Assembly (NCBI RefSeq): GCF_001039005.1
Contig: NZ_LDWR01000011.1
Coordinates: 1-64,000 of the forward strand
From: Burkholderia cepacia
GTDB lineage: Bacteria; Pseudomonadota; Gammaproteobacteria; Burkholderiales; Burkholderiaceae
Reading direction: 5' to 3'
DNA length: 64,000 nt
Shown here: positions 26,188 to 32,833 of the stretch, piece by piece
How the letters are laid out: every line of letters begins with the position of its first letter
How positions within the stretch are numbered: position 1 is the first letter of the stretch
The notes under the pieces: generated by a model
What the model was told of the DNA's origin: nothing
The model's input: the letters and a program-made list of their open reading frames with translations, nothing else
Databases searched by the model: none
Program-made: the position numbers and the translations under genes

Positions 26188-26871
26188 TCAGCCGATCGGG
26201 TCCATGCAAAGCGCATCGGCCGTCACCCACTGCGCGCCCCATGCAGCGGCGAGCCGCGCGCCCTGCCCGATCCGCACGGCCGCATCGTCGAAGTCGACGA
26301 ACACGACGTGATCGGCCGCCGAGGGTTTCGCCGGCGTCTCGCGCGTGCGCCCGTCGGACAACACCCACAGCCAGCGCTGCTTGTCGGGCTCGCGCCGCGC
26401 ATCGTGCGCGAGCAGGTGCGCGGCGGCCGCGATGCCGTCCGCGAGCGGCGTGCCGCCGCCGCCGTCGACCGGTTCGAGCCAGCGCGCGTTCCACCAGCGC
26501 GGCACGGCCGGACCGAAGCGTCGCGCGGCGCCATTGCCACCGAAGCAGATCAGCGCGGTTTCGACGCGGTCGCGCGCGGCGCGATCGAAATACGCGACGA
26601 TCAGCCCCTTCGCCAGCGCGAGCCGGTCGTGCGACAGCATCGACGCCGAACAGTCGAGCACGAAGCAATGCAGCGCATCCGGTGCGCCGGCACGCTTCCG
26701 GTAGCGCAGATGGCCGTGATGCAACGGATCGCCGCGCTTCGCGGCGAACGTCGCCGGCCACGCGACGGCCGTGCCGGTGCGCGCCGTACCCGGCACGCGT
26801 GCGGCTGCGCCTTGCTGCCATCGAGGACCGCGAACGGCGTTCGCGGCGGCGCCGGCTCGATGGCTCAGTGT
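26188..26871 (-). CDS. chlD: VWA portion of ChlD-like cobaltochelatase, reached by -1 frameshift
   Basis: This frame lacks a convincing start near its useful part and continues the ChlI frame after a -1 slip at 26871-26877, giving a full product of about 584 residues. After the join it reads [11 protein letters not shown], then a von Willebrand A domain with the MIDAS motif [17 protein letters not shown] and SDGRT, the metal-ion site that in ChlD/CobT contacts the large chelatase subunit. Together with ChlI it would power cobalt insertion by CobN. The alternative is a separately started VWA gene, as drawn in some genomes. Confidence 0.85.
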
Positions 26872-26877
26872 TTTTTT
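26817..26877 (-). promoter_or_regulatory. Programmed -1 ribosomal frameshift signal in chlI/chlD
   Basis: In the mRNA, codons TTA AAA AAA CAC TGA end the ChlI frame. The seven A residues (26871-26877) allow a one-base backward slip. Six bases later a stem-loop starts: outer arms GCCATCGAG (26864-26856) and CTCGATGGC (26825-26817), nine perfect pairs, enclosing a second perfect stem CCGCGAAC/GTTCGCGG (26846-26839 with 26835-26828) with a three-base loop. Slippery run, spacer and structure match a stimulated -1 site, as reported for chlD genes in other prokaryotes. Confidence 0.85.
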
Positions 26878-27941
26878 AACGGCAGCGGCACCACGCTTTT
26901 CACGTCGCGCAGCCCGGCCGGCTCGGGCCGCAGATAGCCCCAGTCGCCCTGCGCGACGGCGGTGTCGTTCCCGGTTGTGCCCGGTTGATCTTCCGGCTGC
27001 TGGCGTGCCTCCGGCGGTGAACGATCGTCGCGTGCGCGGTCCGGCTGCGACGCGCCGGACGACGGCGGCGTACCGGCATGGCGCCGGTGCCGCAGCACGG
27101 CTTCGGCCACGCGCGCCACGTGCGACATCGTCACCGCATCGGCCTGCTCCAGCGCGGCGAGTGCGCGCGCGGCGCGCAGCATCACGAGATCGGCGCGCAA
27201 CCCGTCGACGGCCGCGTCGATGCACAGCGCGCTGACATGCGCATGCACCGCATCGCCGAAATCGAGCATCCCCAGCCGCGCACGCGCCGCGTGAATCCGG
27301 TCGCCGAGTTCGCGCTGCGCGGCTGCATGGCGTGCGCGGAACGCATCCGGATCGAGATCGAATGCCAGCCGCGCTTTCACTATCCGCTCGCGCTGCGCGG
27401 CATCGAAACAGTTCTCCAGCTCGACCATCAGCCCGAAACGGTCGAGCAACTGCGGACGCAGTTCGCCTTCTTCGGGATTCATCGTGCCGATCAGCACGAA
27501 GCGCGCGTCGTGCGCGTGCGACACGCCATCGCGCTCGACGAGGTTGACGCCGCTCGCGGCGACGTCGAGCAGCGTATCGACGAGCCCGTCGGCGAGCAGG
27601 TTGACTTCGTCGACATACAGCACGCCGAGATGCGCGCGCGCAAGCAAGCCCGGCCGGAAGCGCACGCCGTTTTCGGCCAGCGCATGCGCGAGATCGAGCG
27701 TGCCGGTGACCTGTTCGTCGCTCGCCGACAGCGGCAGCGTGACGAACTGCCCTTCAGGCAGCAGCTCCGCGAGGCCGCGCGCGGCGGTCGATTTCGCGGT
27801 GCCGCGCGGCCCGCTCACCAGCACGCCGCCGAGCGACGGGTCGATCGCGGCGAGCAGCAGCGCCTGCTGCAATGCATCCTGCGCGACGAGCGCCGCAAAC
27901 GGAAAGACCGCGCGGGCGCGGTGCAGTGTCGGATCGGTCAT
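26865..27941 (-). CDS. chlI: ChlI-like AAA+ subunit of cobaltochelatase
   Basis: The zero-frame product has 358 residues. Walker A is SGPRGTAKST (about residue 43), Walker B is VLYVDEVNLL, and GTMNPEEGELRPQLLDRFGL is the sensor region typical of magnesium-chelatase I subunits. A Pro/Gln/Arg-rich linker follows from about residue 295 and the frame ends at KKH-stop directly after the slippery A run. The start overlaps the cobN stop by four bases (ATGA). It should hydrolyse ATP to drive CobN, taking the place of CobS. Confidence 0.92.
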   Translation of the reverse strand: MTDPTLHRARAVFPFAALVAQDALQQALLLAAIDPSLGGVLVSGPRGTAKSTAARGLAELLPEGQFVTLPLSASDEQVTGTLDLAHALAENGVRFRPGLLARAHLGVLYVDEVNLLADGLVDTLLDVAASGVNLVERDGVSHAHDARFVLIGTMNPEEGELRPQLLDRFGLMVELENCFDAAQRERIVKARLAFDLDPDAFRARHAAAQRELGDRIHAARARLGMLDFGDAVHAHVSALCIDAAVDGLRADLVMLRAARALAALEQADAVTMSHVARVAEAVLRHRRHAGTPPSSGASQPDRARDDRSPPEARQQPEDQPGTTGNDTAVAQGDWGYLRPEPAGLRDVKSVVPLPLKKH

Positions 27942-30900
27942 CGCCGTCCCCCTTCCTGGAGTTGTTCGCTTTCGAGCCAGACCGCTTCGATCCGCTCGCG
28001 ATAGTCGCCCGGCTGCTGCCACAAGCCGCGCTGCATCGCCTCGACGAAGCGTTCGCAGATGCCGTGCAGCGCCTTCGGATTGTGCCGTTCGAGGAACCCG
28101 CGCGTGTCGTCGTCGAACAGGTACGCGTCGGCGACGAGCGCGTACTGGTGGTCGGACAGCACGCGCGCGGTCGCGTCATAGCCGTACAGGTAGTCGACGG
28201 TCGCGGCCAGCTCGGCCGCGCCCTTGTAGCCGTGGCGCTTCACGCCGTCGAGCCATTTCGGGTTGACGACGCGCGAGCGGATCACGCGTGCGATTTCCTC
28301 GCGCAGCGTGCGCATCTTCGGCGCGACCGGGTTCGCATGGTCGCCGTGGTAGATGCTCGGCTGCTGCCCGGACAGGTGCCGCACGGCCGCCGTCATCCCG
28401 CCCTGGAACTGGTAGTAGTCGTTCGAATCGAGGATGTCGTGCTCGCGGCTGTCCTGGTTCTGCACGACGACGTCGATCGTCGCCAGCCGCTCGCCGAACA
28501 CGTCGGGCGCGGCATCGCCCGCGCTGTTCTGCGCATACGCATGGCCGCCCCACTGACGGTAGGCGTCGGCGAGATCGGCGTCGGTCTGCCAGCGGCGCTG
28601 GTCGATCAGGTCCTGCAGGCCCGCGCCGTAGCTGCCCGGCCGCGCGCCGAACACGCGCCAGCCGGCGCGGCGCCGCGCTTCGTCGGGCGGCACGCCTTGC
28701 GCGACCCACTTCGCGCGTTCGCGCTCGATGCGCGCGCGGATCGGGTTCAGTTCCTCCGGCTCGTCGAGCGCGGCGACGGCCTGCACCGCTGCGTCGAACA
28801 GGTGCATCAGGTTCGGGAACGCATCGCGGAAGAATCCGGATACGCGCAGCGTCACGTCGATGCGTGGCCGGTCGAAGATCTCGATCGGCAGGATCTCGAA
28901 GTCGGTCACGCGATGGCTGCCGTGCGCCCATTTCGGCCGCACGCCGAGCAGCGCAAACGCCTGCGCGATGTCGTCGCCGCCCGTGCGCATCGTCGCCGTG
29001 CCCCACACGGACAGGCCGATCGCGCGCGGATAGTCGCCGTGATCCTGCAGATGACGCTCGATCAGTTGCTGCGCGGATTTCAGACCGAGCGACCAGGCGG
29101 CTTGCGTCGGCACCGCGCGCGTGTCGACCGAGTAGAAGTTGCGGCCGGTCGGCAGCACGTCGGGGCGGCCGCGCGACGGCGAGCCGCTCGGCCCCGGCGG
29201 CACGAAGCGGCCGTCGAGCCCGCGCAGCAGCTGGCGCATTTCCTCGCCGCCGCATGCGTCGAGCGCGGGGATCAGCGTCGAGCGCACGCGCTCGATCACG
29301 GCGAGTGTATGCGGCCATGCGCCGGGCGGTGTCGCGTCGGTGCCGGCGTTGCCGCCTGCGGCTGCGCACAGCCCGTCCAGCCACTGCTGCGCGAGCCGTT
29401 CGAGCCGCTCGCGCGTATCGCCCGCATGGCGCCACGGCGACGCGTCGAGCGCCTGCAGGACTGCCGGGCGCGGGCCGGCCCACGGCGCGGCCCAGTCGGC
29501 CGACAGCGGATCGAAGTCGTCGCCGAGCGCGAGATCGCGCGCGAGCGCGCCGATCAGCCCCGCACGCACGCCCTTGCCGTCGCCGATCGGAAAACGCGCG
29601 AGCGCGAGCAGCGTGTCGCGCCGCTGACGGTCGGCCGGCGATACGCCGAACACGTGCAGCCCGTCGCGAATCTGCGCTTCCTTCAACTCGCACAGCCATG
29701 CGTCGACGCGCGTCAGCAGCGCATCCTCGTCGCCAGTGTCGCGCGGCGGCGATACGCTCAGCTCGTCGTGCAGCCGGTGCTCGGCGATCGTCGCGAGGAT
29801 CGTCTTGCGCAGCAGCTTCGCGCGCCGCGCATCGACCATCAGCGCCTCGTAGTATTCGTCGACCTGCCGTTCGAGATCCTGCAGCGGCCCGTAGTTTTCC
29901 GCGCGCGTGAGCGGCGGCATCAGGTGATCGATGATCACGGCCTGTGCGCGGCGCTTCGCCTGGCTGCCCTCGCCCGGATCGTTGACGATGAACGGATACA
30001 GGTGCGGCAGCGGCCCGAGCGTCAGGTCGGGCCAGCACGCGTCGGACAGCGCGACGCTCTTGCCCGGCAGCCATTCGAGGTTGCCGTGCTTGCCGAGATG
30101 GATGACCGCGTCGATGCGATACGCATCGCGCAGCCAGAAATAGAACGCGAGATACGCGTGCGGCGGCACCAGATCCGCGTCGTGGTAGCTCGCGTAGTCG
30201 TTCTCGCCGCGCGAGCGCGACGGCTGGATGCCGACGAACACGTTGCCCGCGCGCCAGCCGGCGATCGTGAAACGCCCTTGCCGCAGCGTCGGGTCGGCTT
30301 CGGGTGGGCCCCAGCGTTCGTTCAGCGCGTCGCGCACGGCCGCCGGCAGCCGCGCGAAATGCGCGACGTAATCGGCCAGCGGAAAACTCTGGAACGCCGG
30401 GCGGAACGCATGCACGGCCGCGTCATTGGTCACGCCTTCGGTGAGCCGCGCGATCAGCGCGTCGCCGTCGGGCGGCAGGTCGGCCACCGCATAGCCCGCG
30501 TCGCGCAGCGCCGCGAGCACGCGCAGCGCGGACGCCGGTGTGTCGAGCCCGACGCCGTTGCCGATCCGCCCTTCGCTTTGCGGATAGTTCGCGAGAATCA
30601 GCGCGACGCGCTTGCTCGCGTTGTCGAGCGTGCGCAGCCGGCACCAGCCGCGCGCCAGCGCCGCGACGAACTCGATCCGTTCGGCGTCCGGCTGGTAGCG
30701 CACGACGTCGACCTCGGTGTGCGGGCAGCGATACGCGAGCCCCTTGAAGCTCACCGCGCGCGTGACGATGCGCCCGTCGACCTCGGGCAGCGCGATGTGC
30801 ATCGCGATGTCGCGCGCGTGCAGGCCCTGGTTGTCGGCGACCCATGCGTCGCGATTACCGCCGGACAGGATCACCTGCAGCACCGGCGCGTCGCCGGCGA

Positions 30901-31747
30901 GCACCTCCGGCTCGGCGGCATCGATCGCGCCGGCCGCGAACGCGGTCGTGTTCAGCACGAGCGCGACGTCGTGCGTGTCGCACAGCTGCGTGATGACCTC
31001 GCGGCTCACCGCATCCTTGAGCGACGTCACCGCGATCGGCAGCGGATTCAGCCCTTCCCGCACGAGCGCGTCGGCCAGCGCGTCGAACACGGCCGTGTTC
31101 GCGGCCTGCCAGTGCGCGCGATAGAACAGGATCGCGACGACCGGCGCGCCGGGCGTCCAGCGCGGCCGCCAGTCGTCGACGCTCGCGCGGTCGCGCGCCG
31201 GGTGATACAGCGCGGCGGCCGGCAGCGGGCGCGGCAGCTCGGGTTCGTCGCCGAAGCCGAGCGTGTGGAACGCGATGCTGCGCAGCAGCGCGTCGGCGTT
31301 GTGCACGCCGCCTTCGCGCAGGTAGCGCCACCACAGCCGGCACAGGTCAGGCGCGACCGTGCTCTTCGCGACGAGGTTCGGGTCTTCCTGCAGGTCGCCC
31401 GAGAACATCGCGAGCTGCTGCCCGCGCTTCGATGCGAGCGACACGGCCTGCTCGATCCCGTACGGCCAGTACGCTTCGCCGCCGAGATGATCGATCACGA
31501 CCGTCTTCGCGTGGCGCAGCACGTCGTCGACATAGAAATCGACGGACGCCGGCTGCCGCAGGAACGTGACGTTCGCGAGCCGCACGCTCGGAAAGCCGGC
31601 CGGCAGCTGTGGCACGACGCTCGCGAGCAGCGACAGCGTCGTGTCGGCCGAGCTCAGGATCACGATGTCGGCCGGTTGCTGGTCGATCCGGACGACGCCT
31701 TGCGTATCGTCGACGAAGCCGCCCGGCGTGGTGCGCAGCAGATGCAT
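27938..31747 (-). CDS. cobN: Cobaltochelatase large subunit
   Basis: CobN inserts cobalt into hydrogenobyrinic acid a,c-diamide. Its 1269 residues match the family. Conserved blocks include RVALILANYPQSEGRIGNGV, IHLGKHGNLEWLPGKSVALS, GRNFYSVDTRAVPT and the C-terminal RVVNPKWLDGVKRHGYKGA. It lies in the leftward operon nicT-cobW-cobN-chlI/chlD, six bases after cobW, and overlaps chlI by four bases. All subunits act in the cytoplasm with ATP. Confidence 0.97.
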   Translation of the reverse strand: MHLLRTTPGGFVDDTQGVVRIDQQPADIVILSSADTTLSLLASVVPQLPAGFPSVRLANVTFLRQPASVDFYVDDVLRHAKTVVIDHLGGEAYWPYGIEQAVSLASKRGQQLAMFSGDLQEDPNLVAKSTVAPDLCRLWWRYLREGGVHNADALLRSIAFHTLGFGDEPELPRPLPAAALYHPARDRASVDDWRPRWTPGAPVVAILFYRAHWQAANTAVFDALADALVREGLNPLPIAVTSLKDAVSREVITQLCDTHDVALVLNTTAFAAGAIDAAEPEVLAGDAPVLQVILSGGNRDAWVADNQGLHARDIAMHIALPEVDGRIVTRAVSFKGLAYRCPHTEVDVVRYQPDAERIEFVAALARGWCRLRTLDNASKRVALILANYPQSEGRIGNGVGLDTPASALRVLAALRDAGYAVADLPPDGDALIARLTEGVTNDAAVHAFRPAFQSFPLADYVAHFARLPAAVRDALNERWGPPEADPTLRQGRFTIAGWRAGNVFVGIQPSRSRGENDYASYHDADLVPPHAYLAFYFWLRDAYRIDAVIHLGKHGNLEWLPGKSVALSDACWPDLTLGPLPHLYPFIVNDPGEGSQAKRRAQAVIIDHLMPPLTRAENYGPLQDLERQVDEYYEALMVDARRAKLLRKTILATIAEHRLHDELSVSPPRDTGDEDALLTRVDAWLCELKEAQIRDGLHVFGVSPADRQRRDTLLALARFPIGDGKGVRAGLIGALARDLALGDDFDPLSADWAAPWAGPRPAVLQALDASPWRHAGDTRERLERLAQQWLDGLCAAAGGNAGTDATPPGAWPHTLAVIERVRSTLIPALDACGGEEMRQLLRGLDGRFVPPGPSGSPSRGRPDVLPTGRNFYSVDTRAVPTQAAWSLGLKSAQQLIERHLQDHGDYPRAIGLSVWGTATMRTGGDDIAQAFALLGVRPKWAHGSHRVTDFEILPIEIFDRPRIDVTLRVSGFFRDAFPNLMHLFDAAVQAVAALDEPEELNPIRARIERERAKWVAQGVPPDEARRRAGWRVFGARPGSYGAGLQDLIDQRRWQTDADLADAYRQWGGHAYAQNSAGDAAPDVFGERLATIDVVVQNQDSREHDILDSNDYYQFQGGMTAAVRHLSGQQPSIYHGDHANPVAPKMRTLREEIARVIRSRVVNPKWLDGVKRHGYKGAAELAATVDYLYGYDATARVLSDHQYALVADAYLFDDDTRGFLERHNPKALHGICERFVEAMQRGLWQQPGDYRERIEAVWLESEQLQEGGRR

Positions 31748-31753
31748 CGTGCG

Positions 31754-32833
31754 TTACGCCTGTTGCGGTTCGGCCGCGCACGCGGCGTCGAACGCGCGCT
31801 GCAGTGCGGCCGCGTCGAGATCCTCGCCGATCAGCACGAAGCGGCTCGCGCGCGTTTCGCCGTCCTGCCAGCGACGGTCGAAATAGCTGTCGAAGCGGCG
31901 GCCGACGCCCTGGATCACGAGCCGCATCGGCGCGCCGGGCAGCGCGGCGAAGCCCTTCGCGCGGTAGATCGTGTGCGCCTCGACCACGCGCTGCAGCGCG
32001 GCGATCGTCGCTTCGCGCGTGCCCGCGTCGCCCGATACGACCACCGAGTCGAAATCGTCGTGGTGGTGATCGTGATCGCCGTCGTCGGCCGAGCCGTGAT
32101 GGTCGTGACGCAGGTGGATCGTGTCTTCCGATGCCGATTCGAGCCCGAGCAGCATCGCGAGGTCGAGCTCGCCGCGCGTCGCGCGCACGATCTTCACCTG
32201 CGGCGGGATCTCGTCGCGGATCGCGGTTTCGATCTGCGCGAACTGTGCGTCGCCGACGAGATCGGCCTTGTTCACGATCACGAGATCGGCGGACGACAGC
32301 TGATCGGCGAACAGCTCGTGCAGCGGCGATTCGTGGTCGAGGTTCGGATCGGCGCGGCGTTGCGCGTCGACGGCCTGCGGGTTTTCCGCGAACTGGCCGC
32401 TCGCGGCGGCCGGCCCGTCGACGACGGTCACGACCGCGTCGACCGTGAAGCTGTTGCGGATCGTCGGCCAGTTGAACGCCTGCACGAGCGGCTTCGGCAG
32501 CGCGAGGCCCGACGTCTCGATCAGCACGTGGTCGATGTCCGCACGCCGCTCGACGAGCGCTTCCATCACCGGATAGAACTCTTCCTGCACGGTGCAGCAC
32601 AGGCAGCCGTTCGCGAGCTCGTAAAGCTGGCCGGACGCTTCGTCCTGCGTGTCGTCGCAGCCGATGCCGCAACCCTTGAGGATTTCGCCGTCGATGCCGA
32701 GTTCGCCGAATTCGTTGACGATCACCGCGATGCGGCGGCCTTCGGCATGCTGCAGGATGTGGCGCATCAGCGTCGTCTTGCCGCTGCCGAGAAAGCCCGT
32801 GACGATCGTGACGGGAAGCTTGCGTAGGGTCAT
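31754..32833 (-). CDS. cobW: CobW metal-chaperone GTPase
   Basis: The 359-residue GTPase has the P-loop TGFLGSGKTTL near residue 13, the metal-binding ANGCLCCTVQEEF (C-x-C-C), SADLVIVNKADLV for guanine recognition, and a C-terminal CobW domain. A His/Asp-rich loop (LRHDHHGSADDGDHDHHHDD, about residues 242-261) may store or relay cobalt. It sits between the cobalt importer and the chelatase, consistent with delivery of cobalt to CobN, though that role is inferred from context and the family. Confidence 0.94.
   Translation of the reverse strand: MTLRKLPVTIVTGFLGSGKTTLMRHILQHAEGRRIAVIVNEFGELGIDGEILKGCGIGCDDTQDEASGQLYELANGCLCCTVQEEFYPVMEALVERRADIDHVLIETSGLALPKPLVQAFNWPTIRNSFTVDAVVTVVDGPAAASGQFAENPQAVDAQRRADPNLDHESPLHELFADQLSSADLVIVNKADLVGDAQFAQIETAIRDEIPPQVKIVRATRGELDLAMLLGLESASEDTIHLRHDHHGSADDGDHDHHHDDFDSVVVSGDAGTREATIAALQRVVEAHTIYRAKGFAALPGAPMRLVIQGVGRRFDSYFDRRWQDGETRASRFVLIGEDLDAAALQRAFDAACAAEPQQA

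Follow-up and report, generated by a model that had tools for sequence, protein, structure and literature searches.

Work by Antonov from 2020 is reported to derive both subunits of cobalt chelatase from chlD genes with a frameshift between their two parts (fs-chlD). Antonov 2013 (PMC3711429) groups 23 magnesium-chelatase genes with a frameshift into one cluster, from six genera with Burkholderia named among them, and finds 63, 40 and 10% frameshifting in E. coli for cassettes with 11, 9 and 7 As; an archaeal recoding review (PMC8211752) repeats the 2013 result. Kuznetsov 2022 (PMC9227772) presents a model in which a single gene supplies two subunits of cobalt chelatase; a term search of its main text finds 0 occurrences of Burkholderia. 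The Pseudomonas protegens chelatase gene contains an A_AAA_AAR site with a strong stem downstream; in its available text, Atkins 2016 (PMC5009743) describes strong structure potential with a poorly conserved sequence, and suggests purine and pyrimidine strands and a possible triplex.

The gene described here resembles fs-chlD of PMC3711429 in having a −1 shift at a poly-A run between a ChlI-like part and a downstream part, and the P. protegens chelatase in having an A_AAA_AAR site with a strong stem downstream. It differs from the former in its compound stem: the available text of PMC3711429 gives neither a compound stem nor covariation for Burkholderia, and no account of such a chlD stem in this genus was found in the literature searched, within the coverage of one library. 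The preliminary description of this DNA had stated that frameshifted chlD genes are known in other prokaryotes, which is true and undersells the precedent, since Burkholderia itself is named in PMC3711429. This kind of frameshift site is already published, in this genus too; what merits recording is that pairing maintains the two-storey stem and that the stop codon has a fixed position, and these details do not amount to a new mechanism.

In dnaX, the shift yields a shorter protein, and an upstream Shine-Dalgarno (SD)-like element assists. Its slippery site is accompanied by two stimulators (PMC3711429). The gene described here is like dnaX in its Lys-Lys heptamer and downstream stem, and unlike it in that the shift leads to a longer protein and that an upstream SD-like motif is seen in none of 23 loci from the same genus.

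The window, the whole 64-kb stretch of DNA that was analyzed (69.7% GC), contains the following features on its minus strand:

31754..32833, minus strand: CobW, upstream of cobN (TIGR02475, 486.8 bits, cut-off 332)
27938..31747, minus strand: CobN, large cobaltochelatase subunit, directly upstream of chlD (TIGR02257, 1588 bits, cut-off 822)
26865..27941, minus strand: 0-frame ChlI-like AAA+ ATPase, 358 aa, small subunit (AAA_lid_2; Mg_chelatase; TIGR02442, profile positions 88-343; TIGR02030)
26871..26877, minus strand: slippery heptamer A_AAA_AAA (sequence)
26865..26867, minus strand: 0-frame stop TGA, in the 6-nt spacer, one codon past the heptamer (sequence)
26856..26864, minus strand: 5′ arm of the outer stem (RNAfold and relatives)
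26839..26847, minus strand: 5′ arm of the inner stem (RNAfold)
26827..26835, minus strand: 3′ arm of the inner stem, after a 3-nt loop at 26836-26838 (RNAfold)
26817..26825, minus strand: 3′ arm of the outer stem (RNAfold and relatives)
26188..26871, minus strand: −1-frame VWA part of ChlD, 227 codons and a stop (PF13519 VWA_2; TIGR02442, profile positions 457-589)

Both parts of the gene match one NCBIfam model, TIGR02442 (putative cobaltochelatase), at 379.7 bits for the ChlI part and 64.2 bits for the VWA part when scored apart; the threshold of 779 bits applies to the whole protein. The ChlI ATG at 27941 overlaps the CobN stop codon (ATGA), and cobW, cobN and the split chlD, all on one strand, probably form an operon. 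Among the 80 named loci retained as the best of 181 relatives, the one nearest to the VWA part comes from Burkholderia catarinensis (93% identical). As expected of fs-chlD, CobN is present and the window's genome has no separate gene for the small subunit: a search at E up to 0.001 returned one ChlI locus. For TIGR02030, two matches are counted in this genome and one is listed; two stretches of the protein itself are hit by this model. CobS-like and CobT-like matches score 122 bits (cut-off 559) and 102 bits (cut-off 759), far below the cut-offs. These belong to a distant CobS-like and CobT-like gene pair found elsewhere in the genome (G000:C185:33269-35759), which is perhaps another MoxR/VWA-type pair.

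The junction reads TTA AAA AAA CAC TGA, and the VWA frame lies in −1 relative to the ChlI frame. The run of seven As is the sole A7 on either strand of the 64 kb, where shuffles predict 0.29. It is followed by the 6-nt spacer CACTGA. On the minus strand, RNAfold predicts an outer helix of 9 bp enclosing an inner one, also of 9 pairs, that is capped by a 3-nt loop. The preliminary description had reported the end of the ChlI frame, the A run with the VWA part in −1, the stop inside the spacer, and a 9-pair stem 6 nt downstream enclosing a second hairpin, all of which the sequence, frame check and fold bear out; its count of eight perfect inner pairs also holds, since one of the 9 is a G-U pair. 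The 358-residue ChlI was likewise correct, and the 584 residues given for the fusion agree with the arithmetic sum of 357 and the 227 VWA codons from slip point to stop.

With the frames, heptamer, spacing, predicted stem, conservation, neighboring genes and single ChlI locus observed directly, the site in the window is very probably a −1 programmed ribosomal frameshift in the cobaltochelatase chlD gene. Ribosomes that do not slip would terminate at the TGA one codon past the A run, producing ChlI, the 358-aa small ATPase subunit. A fraction of ribosomes, held by the compound stem 6 nt downstream, would slip back one base on A_AAA_AAA and enter the VWA frame, producing a ChlI-VWA protein of 584 aa, the putative medium subunit. 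The short and long proteins would then join CobN for cobalt insertion in aerobic B12 synthesis. That slipping takes place in this organism, how efficient it is, what the stem contributes and which roles the subunits play are inferred.

The conservation of the site was followed in two sets of relatives. The family sample comprised 200 genomes, 97 of which matched the VWA part; 89 of these have a split gene, seven have an unbroken frame, and one (G188) has separate ChlI and ChlD genes of the Mg-chelatase kind. The named set comprised 80 loci from records of Burkholderia, Paraburkholderia, Trinickia and Caballeronia, retained by a single scan as the best of 181 relatives. The 89 family and 80 named loci (169 in all) overlap and yield 146 distinct loci. 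The VWA part is in −1 in every split family gene (89/89) and in every named locus (80/80), as well as in six genomes of other families. Indels in homopolymer runs are a common assembly error, and the junction sits in such a run, so that a sequencing error or a pseudogene had to be considered; the frame relation shared by all these relatives already refutes that explanation, the probability of which we put at practically nil.

Of the 89 family loci, 87 have AAAAAAA as the heptamer and 2 have AAAAAAG; the corresponding counts are 78 and 2 in the 80 named loci, and 142 and 4 in the 146 distinct loci. No split locus examined has two frames without the A run, a combination that the preliminary description had named as evidence against a frameshift. 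The 0-frame stop falls exactly one codon past the heptamer in all 89 family loci (TGA in 88, TAG in 1) and in all 146 distinct loci (145 and 1). The window gene has the consecutive ChlI-like and VWA frames in −1 and the conserved A_AAA_AAR site of fs-chlD genes, and the reading of the site as a programmed frameshift, first proposed in the preliminary description, is supported by the −1 relation, the A_AAA_AAR site and the stop position in every distinct locus. Among sampled Burkholderiaceae with CobN, the published kind of recoding is the rule (89 of 97 genomes). The single sense codon between the heptamer and the 0-frame stop varies, and the spacing is constant in 146/146 loci and in six loci outside the family.

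The A run could also act at the level of transcription, with RNA polymerase stuttering on it to give mRNAs of altered length that encode the fusion. A homopolymer of seven is present in the window, and one locus outside the family (L182) has a run of 10. However, four of the 146 distinct loci have the run shortened to A6G, as do two loci outside the family (L175 and L176), a change that retains tandem re-pairing of the Lys-tRNAs, and the start of the stem at a fixed 6-nt spacing fits a ribosomal signal. Transcriptional slippage is accordingly considered quite improbable.

In the 146 distinct loci the two Lys codons are preceded by a codon for A, L, V, P, S, T, E or I, the third base of which is always A. 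Eight amino acids with a constant final A, despite a GC content of 69.7%, point to selection acting on the bases and not on the protein. This invariant base is left unexplained if the locus consists of two ordinary overlapping genes, the VWA part being started by translational coupling after the ChlI stop. A GTG does occur in the VWA frame 71 nt past the stop in many Burkholderia loci, the window included, and coupling can coexist with recoding according to Antonov 2013 (PMC3711429). The GTG of the window lies beyond the stem, however, and has no SD-like motif by the rule of our script. Counting ATG, GTG and TTG as starts (CTG and other rare starts lie outside the count), 69 of the 169 loci, duplicates included, have none in the interval leading from the slip site to the VWA match, and a start with an SD-like motif occurs there in 8/169. 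In 5/169 loci the VWA frame opens merely 13 nt before the ChlI stop, which is 3 nt before the heptamer. No conserved independent start of the VWA protein, the other finding that the preliminary description had set against a frameshift, is therefore seen, and coupling as the source of the VWA part is highly improbable.

Upstream of the slip site, an SD-like motif is found in 10/21 loci of one genus (labeled g10), 3/9 of a second (g3), 1/3 of a third (g15), 0/23 of the window's genus, and none of the other genera. Since it is confined to some genera, the motif is not a general element. In g10 (for example L055, L057 and L059), 18/21 loci have an AGG at 5-18 nt before the A run, with none in the window's genus (0/23). 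The AGG or SD-like motif of g10 could be an extra stimulator.

The stem of the window does not stand out by its energy, the RNAfold value giving z = −1.21 against shuffles, 24/200 of which fold at least as well, and a search of 501 bases against Rfam returned no match at E up to 1. The folding energy of the window alone being weak, the case for the stem rests on comparison with relatives. The 5′ arm of the outer stem has 21 different sequences in the 89 family loci. With its best-matching 3′ arm it forms 9/9 pairs in 60 loci, 8/9 in 26 and 7/9 in 3, a choice of arm that favors pairing; shuffled arms reach 9/9 in 0.5% and 8/9 in 10% of trials. When the stem region is excised and folded, the outer 5′ arm has 7 or more of its 9 bases paired in all 146 distinct loci, and the stretch between the outer arms is 30 nt in 124 of them.

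An R-scape-like, tree-based G-test gives weak covariation for single pairs (E ~0.04 for the best pair, E >1 for every other structural pair), and a whole-helix test was therefore used. This test took 116 rows, 22 of the 146 distinct loci having been dropped because the 3′ arm was not at +42 and 8 because their 82-mer was already present. In the null, the changes of each column were re-placed on the tree in 2000 replicates. Both helices together have 1733 of 1856 cells paired, against a null mean of 1525 and maximum of 1670 (reached in 0/2000), for a structure that is the window's own fold and rows selected by arm spacing, which favors pairing, with the inner helix trimmed from 9 to 7 pairs after the apical two were seen to form in only 53 and 43 of the 116 rows. 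Pairs with a double change number 9 over both helices, against 4.0 in the null (reached in 0/2000). When partners are slid by 1-3 columns, 225-557 of 1044 outer cells and 272-450 of 812 inner cells pair. Taken alone, the outer helix has paired cells within the null (198/2000) and double changes in excess of it (5 against 0.8; 0/2000); the inner helix has paired cells above the null (723/812; 0/2000) and double changes within it (622/2000). The compensatory changes that the preliminary description proposed to look for are thus present for both helices jointly, beyond a tree-aware null, but weak for single pairs.

De novo RNAalifold on the 116 gap-free rows recovers the outer helix; in the fixed columns of these rows it does not recover the inner one. 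Full inner pairing is absent from 26/116 rows in fixed columns, and the enclosed hairpin beats 95/100 shuffles in only 29/146 loci, a median of 16 shuffles folding as well. In this gene, the downstream RNA structure that characterizes fs-chlD is predicted, and pairing maintains it across the two helices taken together, a result relevant to the statement of Atkins 2016 that the chelatase structure shows no strong sequence conservation (PMC5009743). The triplex-type stimulator suggested for Pseudomonas in the available text of PMC5009743 has one purine-rich strand, whereas in the outer stem counted here purines make up 5 of the 9 bases of the 5′ arm in 115, 4 in 30 and 3 in 1 of the 146 loci. 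By this count, the triplex idea of Atkins 2016 does not fit.

Eight relatives provide a natural test of the need for a short subunit. CobN scores over the cut-off in 97/200 family genomes, of which 89 are the genomes with a split gene and 8 have an unbroken ChlI-VWA frame. The eight fused genes, L204-L211 (G105, G121, G053, G038, G008, G037, G029 and G017), encode proteins of 667-831 aa that include the VWA motif, and no slip site is found at their junctions. A dnaX-like reverse slip, yielding the short protein from a fused frame, was sought in 16 in-frame fusions (8 from the family and 8 from the class): there is no such heptamer at the ChlI-VWA junction, where runs of A or T reach a maximum length of 3-5, and a slippery-type heptamer occurs elsewhere in the frame in 7/16. 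In four of the eight fused-gene genomes, a ChlI search picked up nothing beyond the two fragments of the fused gene itself. The remaining four (G105, G121, G053 and G017) have further ATPase matches that are weak (E 8.9e-9 or worse), two of them ~350 aa in length. As eight genomes that have CobN contain the fused gene in one unbroken frame and lack a clear separate ChlI, the short protein may not be indispensable; these relatives argue against a strict need for it, unless one of the weakly matching ATPases serves. Several genomes of genus g3 (for example G002:C92:78596-81802) contain a second, distant CobN-like gene of ~280 bits, below the cut-off, near the first or elsewhere.

It is conceivable, if doubtful, that the heptamer, the stop one codon on and the two-storey stem right after the stop form one composite element in which the stop is part of the stimulator, and that the short protein has been dropped in some relatives. 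The outer stem geometry would then be fixed while the inner hairpin drifts, the relatives with an unbroken frame would be those that dropped the short protein, and, if this were true, the small subunit would be dispensable.

Outside the family, a class search matched 60 of 369 genomes, and 29 loci (L175-L203) were examined. Five are split in −1 with an A run, eight are clear in-frame fusions, and 11 gave no clear assignment; L190 matches weakly and in frame, and L186, L191 and L192 have no more than a weak ATPase match at a distance of over 1.1 kb. L196 (G255) is in frame at the ChlI-VWA junction, and its VWA matches change frame inside the domain, reflecting an error or a broken gene. The five split genes (L175, L176, L177, L178 and L182) have the VWA part in −1 and an A run followed by a single codon and TGA; their stems vary in strength and place. 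The A run is broken to A6G in L175 and L176. An order search matched 58 of 349 genomes, with 29 loci beside the window and at least one new split gene. This gene (L217), from another family of the same order, has the VWA part in −1, A7, one codon and TGA, and a stem in the same place with a different sequence. In L177 and L178, which represent one other family, a second run, A8, is found ~30 nt past the stop, just beyond the stem.
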